NCBI GenBank assembly: GCA_018666195.1
Contig: JABJAG010000204.1
Span: forward strand, 1-35,151
Direction of reading: 5' to 3'
Source: Alphaproteobacteria bacterium
GTDB taxonomy: Bacteria > Pseudomonadota > Alphaproteobacteria > UBA6615
Length of the DNA stretch: 35,151 bases
Positions within the stretch are counted from its first letter, which is position 1; every line of letters begins with the position of its first letter. The translations under genes were made by a program, and so were the position numbers. Shown here piece after piece: positions 5,403 to 9,513 of the stretch. The notes below the pieces were generated by a model. The model made no database searches, was not told where the DNA came from, and saw only the letters and a program-made list of their open reading frames with translations.

Positions 5403-5798
5403 ATGCGTGGACTTGCACTGGTAGCCTTACTTTTGGGTGGATTGCCCATCGCGACTTTTGTTGCGACGCTCGTCCTGAGTGATGGCGCGCCATTGCAGTC
5501 GCCATTCCACGTAACGTTTGCAGGGTCAGGGATGTCGGCTGTGGTGCACGTGACGCCGGACTTGAAGCCAGGGCAACCGGCGCAAAAAGCACATGCCGAC
5601 ATCCCCAACCCTATTGCAGCCTCACCGGCGTTGGCGTGGCAGCCGCCGGACCCATACCGGTTGGCCCGCCACCGGACCGATGCGGCCTGGGATCGTCTGG
5701 ATCGACTTGCAGCGGATGGCAATCGTGACGCTCTGATGTTTCGGACCTTGATGCAGTCAGCTGAATTCATCAGGCCGATGAAGGCCAGCAGCCCTTGA
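5403..5798 (+). CDS. hypothetical secreted or membrane-anchored protein
   Basis: This is a 131-residue protein I do not recognise. The N-terminus MRGLALVALLLGGLPIATFVATLVLS is one hydrophobic helix, either a signal peptide or a membrane anchor. The remainder is hydrophilic, Pro- and Ala-rich in the middle (PNPIAASPALAWQPPDPY), with a C-terminal helical stretch (DAAWDRLDRLAADGNRDALMFRTLMQSAEF). The ATG has an excellent GGGAGGAG ribosome-binding site about 6 bases upstream, which strongly supports translation. It lies between the SMP-30 gene (90 bases upstream) and the heat-shock operon. Confidence 0.65.
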   Translation: MRGLALVALLLGGLPIATFVATLVLSDGAPLQSPFHVTFAGSGMSAVVHVTPDLKPGQPAQKAHADIPNPIAASPALAWQPPDPYRLARHRTDAAWDRLDRLAADGNRDALMFRTLMQSAEFIRPMKASSP

Positions 5799-5927
5799 AA
5801 TTTACCGTTTCGGAACCAAATGCAGTGCATCGTCGGAGGCTCAATTGAGCTTCGGCCTGAAAATCATCGGGTGCCAGTCTAGGGCCCGGCAGGACCGCAA
5901 CGGTGCAGATAGTGCTGTGCTGGCGCG

Positions 5928-5961
5928 GCCCGTAACTCGCTCATCAAGGAGGAGTGACGGC
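5928..5961 (+). promoter_or_regulatory. ROSE-like RNA thermometer hairpin over the hsp20 Shine-Dalgarno
   Basis: Just before the hsp20 ATG, CTCGCT (5936-5941) can pair with AGGAG (5947-5951) of the Shine-Dalgarno around a CATCA loop. The G in UCGCU is unpaired or opposite G. The stem extends as GCCCGT (5928-5933) with ACGGC (5957-5961), with one bulged C and a small internal loop. A U(U/C)GCU motif facing the AGGAG with an odd G is the hallmark of ROSE thermometers, which control small heat-shock genes in alphaproteobacteria. The folding was done by eye. The whole 5799-5961 leader has further GC-rich inverted segments. Confidence 0.6.
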
Positions 5962-6420
5962 ATGAATCGCTTGTCTCCACTAAGAAACCCGCTGTTGCTC
6001 GGATTCGATGAATTCGAACGGACGCTGGAACGCATTACCAAAGCCTCTTCGGATGGCTATCCGCCCTACAATATCGAACGCACTGGTGAGACGCGTTTGC
6101 GGATCACCCTGGCCGTCGCCGGCTTTACCCGTGACGATCTGGACATCCAGCTTGAGGACAATCAGTTGACGGTCTCGGGTCAGCAGGCAGCGGAAGATGA
6201 TCGTGAGTATCTGCATCGTGGGATCGCGACGCGGATGTTCAGGCGCAGCTTTGTGCTGGCCGACGGGGTCGAAGTATCCGCCGCATCGTTGGACAATGGA
6301 TTGCTCAATATTGATGTCGTCCTGCCGCAGCCCGAACGCAATATCCGAAAGATCGAAATCGGTGGCGACACCGGCGAAGCGTCCGGGGTTACCGTCGATA
6401 CAAAAGGAGAGGTTCAGTGA
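5962..6420 (+). CDS. small heat-shock protein, Hsp20/alpha-crystallin family
   Basis: This is a 152-residue ATP-independent holdase chaperone that binds unfolding proteins as large oligomers in the cytoplasm. The alpha-crystallin domain spans roughly residues 35-130: YNIERTGETRLRITLAVAGFTRDDLDIQLEDNQLTVSG, then a heat-shock-type strand FRRSFVLADGVEVSAASLDNGLLNIDVVLP. The short N-terminal arm (LLLGFDEFERTLERI) resembles IbpA-class proteins. The track start at 5845 is rejected because the ATG at 5962 has a full AAGGAGGAG ribosome-binding site and fits the family start. The ribosome-binding site lies inside a hairpin listed separately, suggesting temperature-controlled translation. The downstream DUF1150 gene overlaps its stop codon. 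Confidence 0.92.
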   Translation: MNRLSPLRNPLLLGFDEFERTLERITKASSDGYPPYNIERTGETRLRITLAVAGFTRDDLDIQLEDNQLTVSGQQAAEDDREYLHRGIATRMFRRSFVLADGVEVSAASLDNGLLNIDVVLPQPERNIRKIEIGGDTGEASGVTVDTKGEVQ

Positions 6421-6641
6421 ACAACGAAACCCCTGAGAAGCTGATTGAGGAAATCTCGCCTGAGCAGTTTGCTGAGCTTGGTCTGGACCGTGTGGCCTAT
6501 GTGCGTCCCGCCGTGGTGGAGGGACAGAAGGTCTATGCCATTCACAGTGCTGATGGCAGTGAGATCGGCATGATGGCAGGTCGTGATGTGGCCTTTGCCG
6601 CAGTCAAGCAACATGACATGGAGCCCGTCAGCGTTCACTGA
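6417..6641 (+). CDS. DUF1150 family protein
   Basis: This predicts a 74-residue cytoplasmic protein matching the alphaproteobacterial DUF1150 family, of unknown biochemical role. Its usual place is right after an Hsp20 gene, as here. The start is GTG overlapping the Hsp20 stop as GTGA, with AAAGGAGAGG upstream, so it is translationally coupled to the chaperone and likely heat-induced with it. Recognisable family features are an acidic N-terminal helix (PEKLIEEISPEQFAELGLDRVAYVRP) and the compact core KVYAIHSADGSEIGMMAGRDVAFAAVKQHDMEPVSVH. No membrane segment is present. Confidence 0.88.
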   Translation: MNNETPEKLIEEISPEQFAELGLDRVAYVRPAVVEGQKVYAIHSADGSEIGMMAGRDVAFAAVKQHDMEPVSVH

Positions 6642-6680: not shown

Positions 6681-7163
6681 CTAGCTCGCCGCTCGGAACT
6701 GATCGGGAGTTGAGTTGCCGGCTTCCACCAGCAACGCAAAGATCGCATCTGGGTTGTCTGAACCACGCAATTTTTCACAGAACGCCCGGTCGCGCAGGAT
6801 GCGGGACACCCGGGCCAGCGCTTTCAGGTGGTCCGCACCTGAACCTTCCGGCGCCAGGAGCAGGAAGACGAGATCGATGGGTTCGTCATCAATGGCGTCG
6901 AATTCGACGGGCTTCTCAAGCCGTACGAACAGGCCGTGCAGCCCTTTGAGTTTTGGCAACTTGCCATGCGGAATTGCCAGTCCTGAGCCCACGCCAGTGG
7001 AGCCCAGACGTTCGCGTTCCAACAGGATATCGAACACCTGCCGTGAATCCAGATCAAATGCGCTCGCCGCAGCTTTCGAGAGTTCCTGAAGGAGCTGCTT
7101 CTTGCTGGTGGCGCGCAGACTGGCGATCACCGCGTTGCGCTGGAGGATGTCTTCGATTTCCAT
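6681..7163 (-). CDS. ptsN: PTS IIA-like nitrogen regulatory protein PtsN (EIIA-Ntr)
   Basis: This is a 160-residue EIIA of the regulatory PTS-Ntr phosphorelay. In this family phosphate passes from EI-Ntr via NPr to a histidine on EIIA, and the protein then regulates potassium, phosphate or nitrogen responses instead of transporting sugar. The phospho-acceptor is His66 in GLAIPHGKLP. Flanking family motifs are LLERERLGSTGVGSG, the PIDLVFLLLAPEGSGADHLKALARVSRILRD segment and a C-terminal helix. Length is normal for PtsN. It follows hpf by 9 bases on the same strand, so it is the promoter-distal gene of an hpf-ptsN unit in the rpoN neighbourhood. Confidence 0.95.
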   Translation of the reverse strand: MEIEDILQRNAVIASLRATSKKQLLQELSKAAASAFDLDSRQVFDILLERERLGSTGVGSGLAIPHGKLPKLKGLHGLFVRLEKPVEFDAIDDEPIDLVFLLLAPEGSGADHLKALARVSRILRDRAFCEKLRGSDNPDAIFALLVEAGNSTPDQFRAAS

Positions 7164-7172
7164 GGGCGCCTG

Positions 7173-7757
7173 TCAGGCCTCGGTTTCCGGTGTGTCGATC
7201 CAGCCTATATTTCCGTCATTGCGGCGGTAGACCACGCTCAGACCGCTATGTTTGGCATTGCGGAACACAAAGGCGGATGTGTCTGCCAGATCAAGCCGCA
7301 TGACCGCTTCCGAAACCGTCAGGCTTTCAATGGTCGTCTGGTTTTCTGCAATGATGATGGGATTGTCGGGGGCCATAGTGCCGTCCGAAGTCTCGTCTTC
7401 TTCGTTCTGTGGCGCCAGAATATATTCCGGTGCATTGGCAGGTGCGCTCTGCACGTCGCGATTGTGATGATCGCGCAGGCGTCGTTTGTTGCGCCGCAGG
7501 CGTTTTGCAAGATGGGCCAGCGCAACATCAAAGGCCGCATAGGCCTCATCCGCTTCTTCGTGGGCGCGGACGTGGATTCCGCGGCCGACATGCATGCTGA
7601 TCGTCGCGCGAATGCGGAAGCTTTCGCGAGATATGACAACGGTGGCGTCGATCGCGTCCGAGAAATACTTATCGGTTGTGGCTTCGATCGCATCCTCGAT
7701 ATGGAGGCGGAGCGCTTCACCCACGTCGATCTGTTGTCCTGTGACGGTAATCTGCAA
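7173..7757 (-). CDS. hpf: ribosome hibernation promoting factor (long form HPF)
   Basis: This is a 194-residue long-form HPF/RaiA. The N-terminal domain (about 1-105, MQITVTGQQIDVGEALRLHIEDAIEATTDKYF ... VALAHLAKRLRRNKRRLRDH) binds the decoding site of the 30S subunit. A variable acidic linker (about 115-140) follows. The C-terminal dimerisation domain (about 140-194, NPIIIAENQTTIESLTVSEAVMRLDLADTSAFVFRNAKHSGLSVVYRRNDGNIGWIDTP) lets two 70S ribosomes pair in stationary phase. It sits downstream of rpoN, but a 280-base gap with its own TTGACA promoter suggests independent expression, followed by ptsN. Confidence 0.95.
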   Translation of the reverse strand: MQITVTGQQIDVGEALRLHIEDAIEATTDKYFSDAIDATVVISRESFRIRATISMHVGRGIHVRAHEEADEAYAAFDVALAHLAKRLRRNKRRLRDHHNRDVQSAPANAPEYILAPQNEEDETSDGTMAPDNPIIIAENQTTIESLTVSEAVMRLDLADTSAFVFRNAKHSGLSVVYRRNDGNIGWIDTPETEA

Positions 7758-7932
7758 GGTTCAAACCCACTTTGGTTGTTGAAACTGAGAGCGCCGGATT
7801 GGACCATCCGGGGCGTGGAACTGTCGTCGCTATGTCTGTCTGACCTCGTCCCGGACGAATTCCCGGGCCACCCATCCTTCTTTGATCGGTCTGTGGCGAC
7901 CATTCGTGGGGCGGTGATGTGGTGCGGCGCGG

Positions 7933-7961
7933 AACTTAGTCACGGCCCCAAGCCCTGTCAA
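7933..7961 (-). promoter_or_regulatory. predicted sigma-70 promoter for hpf-ptsN
   Basis: On the minus strand a perfect TTGACA (7956-7961) is followed after exactly 17 bases by TAAGTT (7933-7938), in the 280-base gap between rpoN and hpf. Transcription would begin near 7926 and leave a leader of about 170 bases before the hpf ATG. I found no sigma-54 GG/GC element in this gap. The rest of the gap holds no convincing ORF or RNA gene. Confidence 0.5.
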
Positions 7962-8037
7962 TACCGCGAAAACCCACATCTTTCAGATGGTGCGCGCGGC
8001 TGAAACTTCAAGGCGGGCGCGGGTTTGCAGGTCATAT

Positions 8038-9513
8038 TCAGCCGGCGGCGCGTTTCATTCGACGGCGTTCCACAGAGGATGGAATCTTCAATGAATCCCG
8101 GTACTTGGCGACGGTTCGTCGGGCAATCTCAACACCATCGTCACGTAGGATCTTCACGATTTTGTCGTCAGACAGGATCGACTTTGAAGATTCGTTGTCG
8201 ATCATCAATTTGATTTTGTGACGCACGGCCTCTGCTGAATGCTGATCACCACCTTCGCTGCTGTTGATGGCAGTGGTGAAGAAGTATTTCAGTTCGAACA
8301 ATCCACGTGGTGTCGCCATGTACTTGTTGGTCGTGACCCGGCTGATTGTGCTTTCGTGAAGTTTCACAGCAGCTGCGATATCGGCGAGCACAAGTGGCTT
8401 GAGGTGGCTAACTCCATGGCGAAAGAAGGCATCCTGCTGGCGGATGATTTCAGTCGCCACTTTCAGGATGGTCCGTGCTCGCTGATCGAGGGCGCGAACG
8501 AGCCAGTTCGCGGACTGAAATTTCTCCTGAACGAAAGCCTTGTCATCTTTCTCCTGCGCCAGATCATTGATTTCCGCGTAGTAGGCGCGATTCACGAGGA
8601 CACGGGGCAATGTGTCGTTGTTCAGTTCGATTTCCCAGCCGCCGCCCTGTTTGGTGCGCATCATCACATCTGCGGTGACATACTCCACGGCGCCTTCGTC
8701 GAACGCGGAGCCTGGCTTGGGGTCGAGCGTCCGCAACTCGGCAAGCATATCGGTTAGGTCTTCTTCGTCGACCCCGCAAATGCGTCGCAATCCAGGCAGG
8801 TCATGTTTTGTCAGATAGTCCAGGTTCTGGAGCATGGCCGCCATCGCCGGATCCAGGCGGTTGCGTTCGGCAAGTTGCAGGGAAAAGCATTCAATGAGGT
8901 CCCGCGCGAACACCCCGGTGGGCTCAAACGTCTGGAGGGTTATCAGGACAGTTTCGACCAGCTTGATTTCACAACCTAGCTGTTCGGATAATTCCTCGGT
9001 TGAGGTGATCAGATATCCGCGCTCATCAATGGAATCTATCATCGCGCGTCCGATCAGGCGCTGTGTGGCATCACCAATGGAAAGATCGAGCTGCTCGGTC
9101 AGGTGCTCGCGCAGTGTAACTTCACTGGCCATGGTCTGATCAATGCCGGGCATTGAATCACTGTCGCCACGGGCGGCTGGCGCCGTGCCGCCTGCGGGAC
9201 GGAATGGGTCATCGGGGTAGACATTGGTGTAGTCGCTATCAAGAGGCGCTTCCGTAGACGGAAGTTCCTCGCGTTCTGAAAGAGTCGCCGCATCGCCATC
9301 GTCGCTCCGCGTGGGTTCAGGGGCATCCGACGGCTCGGCATTGGCAATAAGAGACTCTTCCCGCTCAAGCAGGGGATTTTCTTCGAGTTCACCTTCAACG
9401 AAGGCAGCCAGTTCAAGATTGGACAGTTGCAGCAGCTTTATGGCCTGCTGTAACTGCGGCGTCATGACCGGCGCCTGCGTCTGGCGGAAGTCGAGACGCG
9501 GTGTCAGAGCCAT
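8038..9513 (-). CDS. rpoN: RNA polymerase sigma-54 factor RpoN
   Basis: This is the 491-residue sigma factor that directs RNA polymerase to GG-N10-GC promoters and needs AAA+ activators. Region I is at the N-terminus (LDFRQTQAPVMTPQLQQAIKLLQLSNLELAAFVEGELEENPLLE, glutamine/leucine-rich). An acidic region II of about 80 residues follows, then the core-binding region and a helix-turn-helix (LADIAAAVKLHESTISRVTTNKYMATPRG). The RpoN box is ARRTVAKYRD at about residues 464-473, close to the C-terminus. All domains are present and length is normal. It follows lptB by 12 bases, the common alphaproteobacterial order, so the lpt block and rpoN probably share transcripts. Confidence 0.97.
   Translation of the reverse strand: MALTPRLDFRQTQAPVMTPQLQQAIKLLQLSNLELAAFVEGELEENPLLEREESLIANAEPSDAPEPTRSDDGDAATLSEREELPSTEAPLDSDYTNVYPDDPFRPAGGTAPAARGDSDSMPGIDQTMASEVTLREHLTEQLDLSIGDATQRLIGRAMIDSIDERGYLITSTEELSEQLGCEIKLVETVLITLQTFEPTGVFARDLIECFSLQLAERNRLDPAMAAMLQNLDYLTKHDLPGLRRICGVDEEDLTDMLAELRTLDPKPGSAFDEGAVEYVTADVMMRTKQGGGWEIELNNDTLPRVLVNRAYYAEINDLAQEKDDKAFVQEKFQSANWLVRALDQRARTILKVATEIIRQQDAFFRHGVSHLKPLVLADIAAAVKLHESTISRVTTNKYMATPRGLFELKYFFTTAINSSEGGDQHSAEAVRHKIKLMIDNESSKSILSDDKIVKILRDDGVEIARRTVAKYRDSLKIPSSVERRRMKRAAG

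Follow-up and report, generated by a model that had tools for sequence, protein, structure and literature searches.

The 5' leader of a small heat-shock gene, hsp20, in the alphaproteobacterial contig analysed here (the window, 35,151 nucleotides) is on sequence grounds probably, at about 0.88, a ROSE-type RNA thermometer (5867–5961) acting on the hsp20–larA mRNA. From position 5928 the leader reads GCCCGUAACUCGCUCAUCAAGGAGGAGUGACGGC-AUG. The hairpin that it is predicted to form here, hairpin III, covers the Shine–Dalgarno (SD) sequence in the 5' UTR of a PF00011 protein with its start at 5962. The features of the locus are collected in Table 1. Converging on hsp20–larA from the minus strand (6681–9513) are a ptsN-like PTS EIIA gene, a gene for a long hibernation-promoting factor and an rpoN-like ORF.

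Table 1. Positions in the window of the hsp20–larA genes and of the elements of the leader.
Feature	Position	Strand	Basis
Putative sigma-32-type heat-shock promoter, CTTGAAA-N15-CCAAATGC	5794..5823	+	Sequence; box kept in relatives
ROSE-like leader, whole RF00435 alignment	5867..5966	+	cmscan 19.5 bits, model 1–94 of 94, gathering threshold 45
Hairpin I, CGGGU-(G5873)-CC / GG-GCCCG, own bulged G	5868..5888	+	RF00435 alignment; recurrence and covariation
Middle hairpin, sequence-variable	5892..5930	+	MFE of 5867–5966 at 20–37 °C
Hairpin III, SD-sealing	5928..5961	+	Folds, covariance model R1, class-wide recurrence
U(U/C)GCU anti-SD motif (UCGCU) with bulged G5939	5937..5941	+	Sequence; CTCGCTC invariant in alignment A4
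Shine–Dalgarno sequence AGGAGG of hsp20	5947..5952	+	Sequence; 9 nt before ATG
hsp20, small heat-shock protein, 152 aa	5962..6420	+	Pfam PF00011, 6e-19
DUF1150 / larA homologue, C-terminus VSVH	6417..6641	+	Pfam PF06620, 2e-16

The hairpin over the Shine–Dalgarno sequence

Folding of 5928–5961 with ViennaRNA between 20 and 45 °C gives GCC.GU.ACUC.CUC[loop]GAGGAGU.AC.GGC, in which C5940-U5941-C5942 pair with G5949-A5950-G5951, A5935–C5938 continue the helix with G5952–U5955 on the far side of the bulged G5939, and A5947 and G5948 of the SD sequence are placed in the loop. The UCGCU motif is predicted to pair imperfectly with the SD sequence, with G5939 as the unpaired G opposite it, where ROSE elements have a conserved unpaired or syn G. 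In the initial annotation CTCGCT was described as facing the SD sequence with an odd G; both the sequence and its coordinates are correct, and G5939 stays unpaired throughout this temperature range. A second stem, GCCCGT/ACGGC, had been drawn up to the base before the ATG. Folding of 5928–5970 alone recovers it, with the outer stem extending to C5961 over the whole range of 20–45 °C. In the minimum free energy structure of the leader (5867–5966) at 20–37 °C its outermost GCC/GGC step is lost, because the hairpin upstream claims bases 5928–5930 and the stem around the SD sequence begins at 5931; that part of the description thus holds conditionally. Adding 59 nt of coding sequence introduces an alternative pairing of the SD sequence from 30 °C upward.

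Single-sequence folding is insufficient by itself to prove the hairpin. When SD occlusion was compared with shuffles sequence by sequence, the window leader ranked at the 23rd percentile and 22 of 87 leaders lay at or below 0.1, a weak test because GC-rich shuffles pair as well. We therefore used tests of the motif and of covariation in its place.

By comparison between relatives, the hairpin at 5928–5961 is real, beyond chance, because its bulged-G core (a pyrimidine, G and C, an inner helix of 3 bp and at least 3 outer bp) recurs in 72 leaders of 109 related hsp20 genes, our first sample, against 6.0 ± 2.2 when shuffling was confined to the bases 5' of the SD, and because R1, a family-level covariance model of the hairpin, matches this one site in the 2.9-Mb genome. 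The background frequency of the core is 4.5% of all 53-mers from the same loci. With selection restricted to the inner 3 bp, 95% of the 59 distinct hairpins have outer pair 3, against 54% after re-dealing of the arms, a control that like shuffling leaves the phylogenetic relatedness of the sequences in; the pair itself is C-G in 38, G-C in 13, A-U in four and G-U in one. Model R1 was built from ten close relatives; L022 and L019 were left out because MAFFT had aligned their CTCG or GAG repeats wrongly. It reaches few distant hsp20 leaders because it is too close to its seed.

The form of the core differs between lineages: those resembling Rhodospirillales have CUC(G)CUC/GAGGAG, Rhizobiales have GUC(G)CUU/AAGGAC, and Methylobacterium and Microvirga have GAAGU(G)CC/GGGCUUC. 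Across the class the two arms change jointly (CUC/GAG, GUC/GAC, GCC/GGC, AGU/GCU) and the bulged G is retained. In seven leaders from Methylobacterium and Microvirga (L067, L071, L077, L081, L084, L100 and L108; about −35 to −5 relative to hsp20) the canonical SD sequence is gone and both arms have changed in concert, with the bulged-G architecture GAAGU-G-CC / GGGCUUC kept.

A second sample was assembled by searching for DUF1150 in 142 genomes of the class and taking the best 29 new loci; a few genomes, G026 and G039 among them, are common to both samples. An hsp20 gene lies upstream of DUF1150 in 27 of the 29, and 25 of these 27 leaders carry the bulged-G core (1.9 ± 1.3 after shuffling), a count that includes L163, whose start codon is probably misassigned. 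Of 24 DUF1150-based leaders for which selection used the inner helix alone, 19 form the full set of three outer pairs, compared with 7.9 after re-dealing (p = 0.0002).

Relation to known ROSE elements

The remainder of the leader also has the layout of a ROSE element. Such elements have between two and four hairpins, a stable one lying upstream; here they are 5868–5888, 5892–5930 and hairpin III. The architecture of hairpin I is present in 47 of the 109 leaders (2.4 ± 1.6 after shuffling), with covariation at outer pairs 2–6, and the middle hairpin has no conservation in alignment A2. Hairpins I and III have a common bulged-G YGC(C/U) design, like repeats of one module.

No family passes its gathering threshold in an Rfam scan of the window. 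Once the threshold is relaxed, RF00435 (ROSE) comes out as the leader's best match, with all 94 model positions aligned and a score below the cut-off (19.5 against 45 bits). By the ROSE covariance-model check proposed in the initial annotation the leader formally fails at the cut-off, but the shortfall is uninformative as RF00435 misses nearly the whole class. The model is narrow, since it reaches its cut-off in none of 240 alphaproteobacterial genomes; at each of its five best sub-threshold loci in these genomes (37–42 bits) an hsp20 gene adjoins the match. For the same reason we rejected the missing Rfam match as a sign that ROSE is absent. As a positive control, ibpA of E. coli is found by the ROSE_2 model at 100 bits and passes the bulged-G core test too. 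The assignment to ROSE made in the initial annotation is borne out by UCGCU and the unpaired G at the SD sequence, by hairpin I, by the full-length sub-threshold alignment and by class-wide recurrence with compensatory changes.

With the RF00435 elements (Bradyrhizobium hspA ROSE1 and relatives) the leader shares a hairpin I with a bulged G and, before hsp20, a 3'-proximal U(U/C)GCU hairpin with an unpaired G at the SD sequence. It departs from them in having UCGCU where the Rfam consensus is UUGCU, in its GC-rich outer stem and divergent middle hairpin, and in its score. The likeness to ROSE_2 (RF01832; E. coli ibpA) lies in an SD-sealing core with a bulged G, which in E. coli is CUC-G-CUG / CAG-GAG, and is not evident beyond this core; the computed hairpin of E. 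coli ibpA is also much weaker. The short ROSE-like elements of Pseudomonas ibpA combine a stable first hairpin with a thermosensing SD hairpin, and sigma-32 transcription with translational control, as is predicted here, but they have two hairpins only and a monocistronic transcript without larA (PMC3669281). We regard the leader as another ROSE element of an already described type and not as a new kind of element, because more than 40 ROSE-type elements have been predicted upstream of alpha- and gammaproteobacterial sHsp genes (PMC3669281) and the annotation of Gluconobacter oxydans places an RF00435 element ahead of hsp20 (PMC5756330).

The same genome has a second hsp20 (contig C175, leader at about 1335–1375) with its own ROSE core, GUU(G)CUC-AACAG-GAGAAC, which was found by eye and is missed by R1. 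The core is present in all 18 paralogue leaders from this family. In one relative of the same genus (L139, G002:C122) hsp20 is split by in-frame stops and the anti-SD sequence, CUCGCCC, no longer fits, which might reflect decay or faulty assembly.

Thermal behaviour and alternative readings

The computed cost of opening the SD sequence in the leader falls only modestly with warming, and is 5.5 kcal/mol at 45 °C against 7.7 kcal/mol at 20 °C. Removing G5939 from the hairpin in silico raises the cost at 37 °C from 6.6 to 11.8 kcal/mol, which agrees with P. putida ibpA, whose delta-G variant is locked off (PMC3669281). Hairpin III is computed to be more stable at 37 °C (−13.4 kcal/mol) than the E. 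coli ibpA hairpin (−5.3 kcal/mol), and nearest-neighbour energies give no full melting at 45 °C, either here or in the other ROSE hairpins computed. Free MiniROSE RNA is itself still structured at 45 °C and melts once bound by the ribosome (PMC4288164). By analogy hairpin III is expected to open on heating.

The high computed stability and shallow temperature dependence would also suit a hairpin that damps hsp20 translation at every temperature, with heat induction left purely to transcription through sigma-32, for which a conserved promoter-like sequence is present upstream. We think this improbable: the leader conserves the bulged G and U(U/C)GCU motif that are features of known heat-labile ROSE elements (PMC3669281, PMC9450479), and a plain attenuator needs no bulge retained while the flanking pairs are swapped. 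The other possibility is that the RNA is unstructured here. The SD sequence and the pyrimidine-rich CUCGCUC would then be conserved for other reasons, such as a protein or sRNA site, with their pairing due to chance. Consistent with this, single-sequence folding is unremarkable and CTCGCTC is invariant in the close family (alignment A4), hence the inner helix shows no covariation there. Across the class, however, both arms co-vary and the bulged G is kept, so that this explanation is strongly disfavoured and barely credible.

A ROSE thermometer is therefore the reading that we carry forward, with a mechanism modelled on those of ROSE1 and of ibpA in E. coli and Pseudomonas (PMC3669281, PMC9450479). 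An mRNA for hsp20 and larA would be transcribed from the sigma-32-like promoter. At growth temperature hairpin III would pair the anti-SD sequence ACUC(G)CUC with the SD sequence GAGGAGU and block 30S binding, with hairpin I and the middle hairpin aiding folding. On heating, and probably with the help of the ribosome, hairpin III would open and hsp20 would be translated, the bulged G keeping the helix weak enough for this to occur. LarA would rise alongside Hsp20 through transcription and translational coupling, so that a chaperone and a Lon activator might be supplied jointly. Both heat opening and coupling of hsp20 to larA are steps that we infer.

Expression of hsp20 and larA

The promoter candidate (Table 1) is likened to a sigma-32 promoter on a consensus that we take from general knowledge. 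CTTGAA occurs at −153 to −179 in all of the close leaders L003–L015, followed in most by a box resembling CCATTTA/CCAAAT, and no sigma-70-type promoter site was found. Transcription from the putative sigma-32 promoter is predicted.

The downstream gene is the sole DUF1150 gene of the genome and has the marks of LarA: a PF06620 match, a C-terminal V-x-V-H and a position downstream of hsp20. LarA is an allosteric activator of Lon in Caulobacter, where it requires V86-x-V88-H89 (PMC10665427), and by analogy the larA product would activate Lon in this organism. The locus resembles the Caulobacter sHSP2–larA operon in having hsp20 followed by DUF1150/LarA, the same C-terminal motif and, putatively here, sigma-32 control; the Caulobacter paper names no RNA thermometer (PMC10665427). 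A paper linking LarA or DUF1150 with an RNA thermometer was not found in the open-licence literature searched.

The GTG start of larA overlaps the TGA stop of hsp20 by four bases (GTGA). The same 4-base overlap is present in nine of ten close relatives, and a larA homologue lies downstream of hsp20 on the same strand at 89 of 110 loci. The overlap and near-constant linkage suggest that the two genes are translationally coupled. The SD sequence of larA itself is nearly open, with a computed opening cost of 1.9 kcal/mol at 37 °C; control of larA by the thermometer would therefore act only via translational coupling at the stop/start overlap or via polarity. It is a real possibility, compatible with a ROSE element, that the hairpin governs hsp20 only and that larA has independent translation, served by an open SD sequence of its own, AAGGAGAGG, as the low opening cost would allow. 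Against so narrow a scope stand the overlap and linkage, which point to coupling and fall short of proof.

We consider the class-wide arrangement of ROSE, hsp20 and larA to be what is added to the known ROSE elements. It widens their range to lineages that the public Rfam model misses, and the compensatory changes argue for a single conserved device, the bulged-G hairpin, beneath differing SD sequences. There is perhaps a slightly less than even chance that throughout the Alphaproteobacteria a ROSE thermometer, besides sigma-32, sets the output of a proteostasis module made up of Hsp20, a holdase chaperone, and LarA, the effect of temperature on the level of both proteins being exerted by way of RNA. 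The arrangement leads to the prediction, absent from the LarA paper (PMC10665427), that LarA, the activator of Lon, may be controlled by an RNA thermometer.
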